A DNA stretch of 64,000 bases from Thermoplasmata archaeon. GTDB lineage: Archaea > Thermoplasmatota > Thermoplasmata > Thermoplasmatales > Thermoplasmataceae. The stretch lies in assembly GCA_021846395.1 (NCBI GenBank), contig JAJZXB010000001.1, positions 62,001 to 126,000 on the forward strand. The letters run 5' to 3'. Shown here piece after piece: positions 38,763 to 41,494 of this stretch (position 1 is the stretch's first letter; every line of letters begins with the position of its first letter). The notes under the pieces are model-generated. The model did not search any database. It worked only from the letters and a program-made list of their open reading frames with translations, and had not been told where the DNA came from. Position numbers and translations under genes: made by a program.

Positions 38763-39815
38763 ATGAAAATTTCCCTCAATTCAGGAATTGAAAACGATGA
38801 AAATGTATTTTCCCTAACATTTGCCAATAGAGAAAATATCATTAATAATTCACCTTCAAGAGCATTTAAAAAATATGGTTCAAACTCCAATAAATTGTTT
38901 ACTGAAGTTTTTTTATCAATAAAGAATGAAGAAATCAATGGTTCAAAATATGATTCTTTTAATAACAACATAGAACGAAAATTAAAACGCAGTGAGAGCA
39001 ATGATAATATAAATATAATTACATTTTTTGGTGATAAATATGTAGATTCTAACAAATTAAGCAATTTCGAAGATATACAGTTATTATCTAATTTTGAATC
39101 TTTATTCAATGACAATTTAATATGTATGCCATATACGCAAAAATTTTATTTTGACAGTTTTGATACAATTTTTGATAAAACAAAAGAGATATACAATACC
39201 TTTTCCGGCGTTTTAACAAAAACCAGTTTGGTGGGCTATTTGCCTGCATATTTGCATTACAGGGATGCAGATAAATTCCTCAAATTTTATTCTGGAAAAG
39301 CCACTGGTGATGTATATAACAATGGTTCTACATTGAATGCCATTCCTTTAATGATTGATTTTAAGAGATCAAATCCGGATAATTTCAAAAGGTTTGTAGC
39401 ATATTTATTAAAATTAAAACAGAAATACATAAAGGAGGGATATTATCCTATCTATTATGCATTTAATGTTAACAGGCCAAGACTGAGCAAAAAAAGAGAT
39501 ACTGAAGTTGCTAAAGAATTTTTACTTTCATTTCTTGGATTCGATATAATTGGTGCATCAAATGCAATAATTGCAGGTTATGGAACCAACTATTCAAATG
39601 AAGTCAATTTTGATATTTCATCTTTTTCCTATAAATTTACCGGATCTAAAATAAATACTGGTGATGCATATGATAATAAAAATATGATGTATAACTCCCA
39701 GACTGCTTATTTAACAAATATACACACTAATAGTCTTAATGATAAGGATTATGTAAAAAAGGAGCTGGGAAGCAGAAAAATGGCAATGGATTATATAAAA
39801 ACTATGAATGCTTAA
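38763..39815 (+). CDS. Unknown 350-residue protein convergent to a PIN/Panacea-like pair
   Basis: I do not recognise this soluble, Asn/Lys/Ser-rich protein. Notable stretches are NIITFFGDKYVDSNKL, VGYLPAYLHYRDADKFL, AIPLMIDFKRSNPDNFKRF and YYPIYYAFNVNRPRLSKK, alternating strand and helix in the middle 200 residues in a way that could be a barrel. Its 3' end overlaps the convergent PIN gene by 14 bases. Its position next to a toxin-antitoxin-like pair and IS relics suggests an accessory or defence role; that is inference. Confidence 0.72.
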   Translation: MKISLNSGIENDENVFSLTFANRENIINNSPSRAFKKYGSNSNKLFTEVFLSIKNEEINGSKYDSFNNNIERKLKRSESNDNINIITFFGDKYVDSNKLSNFEDIQLLSNFESLFNDNLICMPYTQKFYFDSFDTIFDKTKEIYNTFSGVLTKTSLVGYLPAYLHYRDADKFLKFYSGKATGDVYNNGSTLNAIPLMIDFKRSNPDNFKRFVAYLLKLKQKYIKEGYYPIYYAFNVNRPRLSKKRDTEVAKEFLLSFLGFDIIGASNAIIAGYGTNYSNEVNFDISSFSYKFTGSKINTGDAYDNKNMMYNSQTAYLTNIHTNSLNDKDYVKKELGSRKMAMDYIKTMNA

Positions 39816-40362
39816 TATTACCGTATTTCCTCAATATATTTCCGATATATTTTACATCATAAATTCTGAAATCGTGATTTGCAAGTATTAAAAATTTTAT
39901 CATGTCAGTATTGTTGTCGAACCAGCCATTTAGGCATTCTTCATAAAATACAAACGGAGTTTGAAAAAACTTTTTATCTATTTTATTTTTTTTCATTAAT
40001 TTTAAAACATCCATATCATTTGAAACAATTTTTTTATTGTCTATTCTGTCTTTTATAAATCCCTGTACAATGGAATTTTCTCCCAGGCCTCTTGCTTTAT
40101 CTATGGGCATTTGTATATGTTCACATGTAATTATTTTTTTCATTTCTGACCATAATTTATTTATCTGGTCCGTAAATTTGCAGTCAATATTATTATTTAT
40201 ATTTTTTATAAAAATATTGACCTCCATTTCCACTGCATCAGTTATTATCAATCTTATATGGTCATTGCTTTTCATGTGAATGTGAATATTTGATTTAGGT
40301 AGTGTTTTTATTATATTAGTTATGACATTGGTATCAATCCATCTTGTTTTAATTGTTCCCAT
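39802..40362 (-). CDS. PIN-domain nuclease-like protein
   Basis: A 186-residue protein with the PIN fold: WIDTNVITNII (first Asp, residue 10), ITDAVEMEVNIF (Glu), LGENSIVQGF (Glu of the GExS-type motif) and IVSNDMDVLKLMKK (last Asp), all in order. PIN proteins are Mg2+-dependent RNases, mostly toxins. It overlaps the upstream Panacea-like gene by 14 bases, as toxin genes follow antitoxin genes. The extra 50 C-terminal residues after the last motif are unlike small VapC toxins. Confidence 0.75.
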   Translation of the reverse strand: MGTIKTRWIDTNVITNIIKTLPKSNIHIHMKSNDHIRLIITDAVEMEVNIFIKNINNNIDCKFTDQINKLWSEMKKIITCEHIQMPIDKARGLGENSIVQGFIKDRIDNKKIVSNDMDVLKLMKKNKIDKKFFQTPFVFYEECLNGWFDNNTDMIKFLILANHDFRIYDVKYIGNILRKYGNIKHS

Positions 40363-40918
40363 AAATTATCATGTCTTTAGCTTCTTCATCAATAATCCCT
40401 TTTCTTTCCATACTTTTTAAATAGTGTTTTTGACTTTTTTCTAATTGATCTTTTAAAATTGAAGATGAGGTAAAATAAGATCTCACATTTTTATCCACAA
40501 CCGGGTGGAAATAAACATAAAAAGTCAACTCCATTGGTGACAATTTCCTCAATAACATATCAACGTTGTTTAATACTTCTTTTTCAATACTGTCAAAGGT
40601 ATAATCTTTAGTGAAATTCTTTTTACTTTTGTATACTGTATTGTCACCAGTTTTGTATATCACTAGTCTATCATAGCCTTTTAAAGTATCACATTCACCG
40701 TCAACCTCCTCACTGAAAGGTCCAAGTTTATAAGGCTCAAATCCGGCCAATTTTAATATTTCATTATAATCATGGTTATTTTTTACAGCATAAGAATATA
40801 AAAAAAGGAATATTGCCTTTTGTAAACTTAATATTGGGACTTCTTTATCTCTGGTAAAATAAATTATTGCCTTTTCAATCAAATCACCAACATAAAATAC
40901 ATCTATGTCTTTTTCCAT
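40349..40918 (-). CDS. Panacea/SocA-like (DUF4065-type) antitoxin candidate
   Basis: A 189-residue helical protein. LQKAIFLFLYSYAV, followed by GFEPYKLGPFSEEVDGE, follows the Panacea/DUF4065 pattern (LQKLLY-like helix, then YKxGPxS), and ends in a charged helical tail. Panacea domains are promiscuous antitoxins that neutralise different toxins. Here the next gene is a PIN nuclease, overlapping by 14 bases. Family match is by eye and moderate, and the pairing with PIN is from position. Confidence 0.55.
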   Translation of the reverse strand: MEKDIDVFYVGDLIEKAIIYFTRDKEVPILSLQKAIFLFLYSYAVKNNHDYNEILKLAGFEPYKLGPFSEEVDGECDTLKGYDRLVIYKTGDNTVYKSKKNFTKDYTFDSIEKEVLNNVDMLLRKLSPMELTFYVYFHPVVDKNVRSYFTSSSILKDQLEKSQKHYLKSMERKGIIDEEAKDMIIYGNN

Positions 40919-41050: not shown

Positions 41051-41494
41051 TTTAGATTTAATGCACAGTTTTGTCAATACTATGAATCACTTATGAAAAA
41101 AGGGGATTGGGGAATAGAAGCTGAATATAATGGAATCGTCTTGCTTGCAAAAGGTTACACGGGTAAGCCATTGATATATAGTGCAGAAAACAAATATTTC
41201 CTGGGACCAATCTTTCTGTTTTGCCAGAGAATTCATTCAGTAAAAGCAAAGTAATATGTAAGGGAGAATGCAAGTACACTTTCAAGAGGTTCACCTGCAA
41301 GGTCTAAAATATCGAGGTTCATAAAGAAATATTCTCATAAAATATGGAAGGAATATTTCCATTATGGTATGAGATGGATTGTTGAAATACATTGTTCGGG
41401 AACTTAAAATGAAGGTTTATTTTTACAATATGTTGAACCAGTTAAGGGAGGTAAATTAATTATGCAACAAACTAAAGGCAAATTAAAATATTAA
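41051..41494 (+). pseudogene. Transposase C-terminal remnant (IS4/IS5-like DDE type)
   Basis: One frame, with internal stops, reads MKKGDWGIEAEYNGIVLLAKG, then ENASTLSRGSPARSK, then WKEYFHYGMRWIVEI and QYVEPVKGGKLIMQQT. The NAST-x-SRGS and YGxRWxVE...FGxYVxxVK patterns are the C-terminal region of DDE transposases common in the Thermoplasmatales. There are TAA codons after VKAK and SGT, and no start region. It is a dead insertion-sequence fragment. Confidence 0.65.

Follow-up and report, generated by a model that had tools for sequence, protein, structure and literature searches.

Description of the locus

Three overlapping genes, located in the window, the analysed stretch of 64,000 nucleotides from the genome of a Thermoplasmata archaeon. 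Plus-strand gene at 38763..39815, encoding a protein of 350 aa, predicted to be TGT-like (TGT, tRNA-guanine transglycosylase) and without TGT catalytic motifs; third component. Minus-strand gene at 39802..40362, encoding a putative PIN-domain RNase of 186 aa with the acidic positions D10, E47, E95 and N115/D116; candidate toxin. Minus-strand gene at 40349..40918, encoding a Panacea/SocA-like protein of 189 aa, the C-terminal segment of which corresponds to UPF0175 in relatives; candidate antitoxin. The 350-aa gene and the PIN gene are convergent and overlap by 14 bp (39802–39815); the PIN gene and the antitoxin gene are co-directional and overlap by 14 bp (40349–40362). Rechecking of the coordinates showed the gene positions and both overlaps given in an earlier note on this DNA to be exact. 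The trio has no match above a meaningful score in Pfam, NCBIfam or PADLOC and is unmatched among the described anti-phage systems that PADLOC covers.

Candidate toxin

The 186-aa protein is likely a PIN domain, as judged from its motifs and from weak profile matches. All four motifs quoted earlier for it (DTN, DAVE, GENS, SND) are present. D10 lies in DTN, E95 in GENS and N115/D116 in SND, as had been claimed, but the key acid E47 is situated two residues past the glutamate of DAVE. D10 is common to the ten aligned trio PINs; E47, E95 and, less strictly, the fourth acid are kept in them, except for divergent spots in genome G309. D116 is replaced by N in two relatives. Pfam matches of the PIN clan in orthologues are weak, below cut-off (PF01850, E 0.0085; PF16289, E 0.0018), and begin beside the first aspartate. 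DUF3368, the tail of PIN toxins, is matched below cut-off in far relatives (E 1.8e-5). The PIN profile score is 31 versus a maximum of 18.2 in shuffles (probability 41%). The suspected toxin-antitoxin-like pair with a PIN partner in an archaeon is supported.

Candidate antitoxin

PF13274, the Pfam Panacea profile, does not match the 189-aa protein, and a genome search with it found a different gene. When profiles were compared, the match to this phylum's PF13274 members was 94% (score 51.8, 120 columns), versus a maximum of 20.7 in 200 column shuffles. With a nine-member antitoxin alignment and above-cut-off Panacea members only, the score was 42.7 versus 20.4 in shuffles. Homology to the Panacea domain is thus supported by profile comparison. 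A profile search, proposed earlier as the check on Panacea identity, finds the similarity between profiles but not with the Pfam profile, so the identity stands as a remote link only. The C-terminus matches UPF0175 above the curated cut-off in the G309 protein and in several more relatives; relatives also show weak DarG and SocA_antitoxin matches. UPF0175 is listed as a partner family of PIN toxins (PMC2701414). Since the protein falls below PF13274 while its profile matches and its relatives carry UPF0175, it is, on sequence comparison, a remote Panacea/SocA relative of a family with a UPF0175-like tail, and not Pfam Panacea as defined.

A second, sub-threshold Panacea-like gene is present in the window's genome (G000:C18:121669-123170; L036, L050); a VapC-type PIN gene in opposite orientation is about 0.9 kb away.

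Third protein

No meaningful match of the 350-aa protein was obtained in Pfam, NCBIfam, PADLOC or PHROGs. Its description as a gene of no recognised family therefore holds for sequence libraries, none of which knows it, but not for predicted structure, which gives a TGT fold that the earlier note had missed. The family model was built from 16 sequences with L133, a relative 16% identical to the window protein, as the target, and has a pLDDT of 90.0 and a pTM of 0.90. All top 50 listed PDB matches of this model are TGTs, with E-values of 1.4e-7 to 4e-6, TM up to 0.60 and identity of about 10–12%. The group of the window protein is linked to the modelled group by profile-profile comparison (96%, 246 columns). 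On the evidence of the model, the third protein family is of TGT fold. A first model from 4 sequences (pLDDT 60, TIM-barrel-like, no significant match) was superseded by the 16-sequence model.

No match to the third protein is given by PF01702 (Pfam TGT), nor to PDB chains by the A7 profile in sequence comparison; global alignment to TGT is uninformative. Local profile comparison with TGT alone gives scores like those of shuffles with few sequences and slightly above them with more; the alignments fall in the C-terminal region of the zinc motif of a second subfamily. The second subfamily is joined weakly to the first (score 40 versus 21.7 in shuffles, 41 columns). The TGT-type zinc motif CxCx2C-H occurs in 7 of its 8 members and is absent from the window subfamily. 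The motif and the local alignments support the TGT fold independently of the model.

None of the 23 members tested has either catalytic aspartate motif of TGTs (DSGGF; GxDxFDS); among true TGTs, used as controls, 25/28 and 22/28 were positive. This argues for a TGT fold probably without TGT activity. The third protein is, to judge from these motifs, probably not a base-exchange enzyme but a binding or sensing subunit. E51, D190 and N225 (L133 numbering) are conserved in the modelled family and may line a ligand pocket. The genome's own TGT, a PF01702 enzyme, is encoded on another contig.

Recurrence of the trio

Separate searches with each of the three proteins covered 117 genomes of the order. 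Hits to the antitoxin candidate and to the PIN protein came from an identical set of three genomes: that of the window, G062 (other genus) and G028 (other family). The 350-aa protein had hits in this set and in G093. The three genes are adjacent in G028 and in G062. By profile search in 390 genomes of the phylum, a far relative of the 350-aa protein was detected in G309, of another family of the phylum, with an antitoxin gene and a PIN-like gene adjoining; the trio there is far diverged. In the window the big gene and the PIN gene converge; in G028, G062 and G309 the big gene diverges from the antitoxin gene. Retention of the trio despite its rearranged layout argues for a functional link. The three genes are a real unit, travelling together. 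A search for the same trio elsewhere had been suggested, with separation of the genes as the unfavourable outcome; independent single-gene searches found them side by side in G028 and G062, of the same order, and in G309, of another family of the phylum, which is more than chance.

In G093 (L013, G093:C124, 3359–5073) an intact TGT-like gene without antitoxin or PIN gene is located on a 5.3-kb contig, with a transposase-like frame where the antitoxin/PIN pair would be expected.

Among viral contigs, phages and plasmids, searches with proteins of the window, G028, G309 and related groups found no relative, the exception being one Haloarcula plasmid, found with L133 as the query. This member of the TGT-like family (L176; Haloarcula sp. 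JP-L23 plasmid CP050016.1, 4998–6212; E 7e-33) lies beside a type IIG-like restriction-modification (R-M) gene; upstream of it are two small uncharacterised genes that overlap each other. The TGT-like family is therefore not confined to this phylum. No description of the trio was found in the literature; subscription journals were largely outside the search, and novelty is thus unproven.

Mobility and genomic surroundings

Genome G042, of the same genus, aligns collinearly with the window, with about 85–90% DNA identity, as far as 38528 on one side and from 41474 onwards on the other. The segment 38529..41473 is missing from it (blastn of the window versus G042:C55). At this empty site the trio is absent and both flanks are intact, with about 1 kb of unrelated sequence versus about 2.9 kb in the window. 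From the patchy distribution and the empty site, the trio is mobile. No tRNA or repeats were convincing as an integration site. Degenerate open frames at 41080–41440, just outside the trio, resemble remnants of an inserted element.

In the window the trio is surrounded mostly by metabolic genes and does not lie within a defence island. In G028 the trio lies next to the two Gabija genes (GajA, E 2e-161; GajB, E 1.2e-204), to transposase-like genes and to the gene of a type IIG-like R-M protein. The G062 copy has a McrB-like AAA protein and an Eco57I-type R-M protein as neighbours, and the G309 copy a protein that strongly resembles the R-M protein of G028. The suspected role in defence gains from this adjacency of trio relatives to Gabija, type IIG R-M and McrB-like genes. 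The Gabija-type pair (GajA, GajB) is complete, at L011 5855–9431, about 0.6 kb from the G028 trio copy.

Retention of the third gene and exchange of the toxin

An antitoxin profile search was positive in 37 of 390 genomes of the phylum; neighbourhoods were then compared and family profiles built. Including the window, 41 antitoxin loci were obtained, 24 of them with an adjacent TGT-like gene: 16 with a relative of the 350-aa protein and 8 with the second subfamily, of similar length, directly downstream. The window layout, an antitoxin-PIN operon with the big gene convergent, occurs in 7 further loci. Several families of the phylum keep the TGT-like gene, whether it is convergent, divergent or co-directional. 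Distances of the antitoxin and of the TGT-like protein are correlated (r 0.835; 0/10000 permutations). The locus could still be an ordinary two-gene PanA-PIN toxin-antitoxin with the TGT-like gene as a hitch-hiking neighbour, since 17/41 antitoxin loci, some at contig ends, are without a TGT-like neighbour and only a small share of the published Panacea loci has an accessory third gene (PMC8832971). Retention in more than half of the loci, in several families and three layouts, with correlated divergence, speaks against it and leaves it a small chance.

The PIN protein is the usual candidate toxin. In about ten loci other proteins replace it with the third gene kept, a retention across toxin swaps that the earlier note had missed. 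From their position, these substitutes would be toxins. A protein of 96–126 aa is in the toxin position of seven loci, and of one without the third gene; its family is present in all 7 CxCxxC-type loci. In L165 a classical VapC-type PIN takes the toxin position and the big gene is retained. The idea of the 350-aa gene as a second toxin was dropped, since it is retained with other toxins.

Members of the 96–126-aa family (L145 3516–3806, L146 4672–4962, L136, L139, L143, L154, L158, L159) are encoded immediately upstream of the antitoxin gene; in seven cases a zinc-type TGT-like gene follows downstream. Pfam gave no match for the one member searched. Candidate new toxin family, as far as sequence and position indicate. 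The toxin position of another antitoxin/TGT-like locus (L152 3213–4016) holds a 267-aa protein without a Pfam match, the start of which may be read as a nucleotide-cyclase-type domain. In L148, L150, L162, L163 and L164, from other genomes of the family, the antitoxin family occurs with a different PIN gene, COG1569-like by eye, and without a TGT-like neighbour.

Interpretation

The trio is on balance best read as a mobile tripartite type II-like toxin-antitoxin module with a degenerate TGT as its third part. Function of the module probably anti-virus. The PIN protein would act as an RNase toxin, cutting tRNA or rRNA and so stopping translation. The Panacea/UPF0175-like protein would bind and silence it, and probably represses the operon. 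The degenerate TGT-like protein may bind nucleic acid by its barrel and base pocket, most likely tRNA or one that is modified or viral. It would act through the antitoxin to keep the toxin off until infection alters the ligand; release of the toxin would then lead to dormancy or death (abortive infection). Points that weigh against this reading are the G093 TGT-like gene standing without the pair, the position of the window trio outside a defence island, and the 17 antitoxin loci with no TGT-like neighbour, by which the third gene is not obligatory everywhere. The third gene is common and outlasts exchange of the toxin. Most economically, the TGT-like protein would be a regulator or sensor that binds nucleic acid and governs whether the antitoxin lets the toxin go. 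Its persistence beside the antitoxin, even where the toxin is swapped, points to a sensor or regulator of a novel type for such systems. A bolder form of the same reading, a new archaeal immune class in which a dead TGT senses modified guanine in tRNA or viral DNA (e.g. 7-deazaguanine marks) and fires interchangeable toxins via the Panacea antitoxin, is rather unlikely.

One rival reading is that the TGT-like protein still exchanges bases and thereby labels self nucleic acid, with the PIN protein cutting what is unmarked, in a Dpd-like manner at the RNA or DNA level. The fold of the family agrees with this, TGT homologues have a DNA-modifying role in the Dpd system and are present in BREX-related capture systems (PMC12839542), and the conserved E51, D190 and N225 could make an altered active site. 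Marking is nevertheless improbable, given the loss of both aspartate motifs from every member tested. Further, no Dpd-type DNA-modification genes were noticed in an unsystematic look among the listed neighbours, and toxins that vary widely beside a constant TGT-like protein suit a regulator better than a substrate-matched modifier.

TGTs bind tRNA, and the TGT-like protein could on that account belong to the toxin, as an adaptor that would bring bound tRNA to the PIN nuclease. Cleavage of tRNA or rRNA by VapC PIN toxins, as cited in PMC10440598, would fit, but the adaptor is very improbable, since the protein also accompanies non-PIN partners and is transcribed from the opposite strand in PIN-type loci.

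The favoured reading, a regulator or sensor, bears on the trigger of Panacea-type toxin-antitoxins; the Panacea domain has been proposed as a sensor of activating cues (PMC10440598). Here a fold that serves nucleic-acid modification, with its catalytic motifs gone, often accompanies the antitoxin while toxins vary. This makes the TGT-like protein a concrete trigger candidate that can be tested, in archaea with poorly known virus defences.

Comparison with known systems

DarTG: the DarG profile aligns with the G309 antitoxin (E 1.3e-5, profile positions 160–272), but the antitoxin has no macrodomain match and no DarT-like partner is found among the adjacent genes. PIN/UPF0175 pairs (Makarova 2009, PMC2701414): alike in the PIN partner with a DUF3368 tail and in the UPF0175 segment, both seen in relatives; distinguished by the N-terminal Panacea-like domain of the antitoxin and by the third gene.

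PanAT (PMC8832971, PMC10440598): alike in the Panacea-like antitoxin, the antitoxin-first overlapping operon, the exchangeable toxins including nucleases, and occurrence in archaea. Panacea antitoxins neutralise diverse toxins (PMC8832971, PMC10440598). In Panacea systems accessory third genes are uncommon within their families and considered of no importance to toxicity or neutralisation (PMC8832971, PMC10440598), whereas the TGT-like third gene is frequent here. Further differences are an antitoxin below the Pfam Panacea threshold and the UPF0175-type C-terminus in relatives.

TGT superfamily, including DpdA: alike in the barrel fold by model, the N-terminal TP segment and, in one subfamily, the zinc motif. 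The present family differs in the low identity of its structural matches (about 10–12%), with no Pfam TGT match, in the absence of both catalytic aspartate motifs and in its linkage to toxin-antitoxin genes. Tripartite toxin-antitoxin systems (TAC chaperone, MazEF-MazG, PaaR): alike in having a toxin, an antitoxin and a conserved third protein, which here is of predicted TGT fold and not a chaperone, an NTP hydrolase or a plain regulator.
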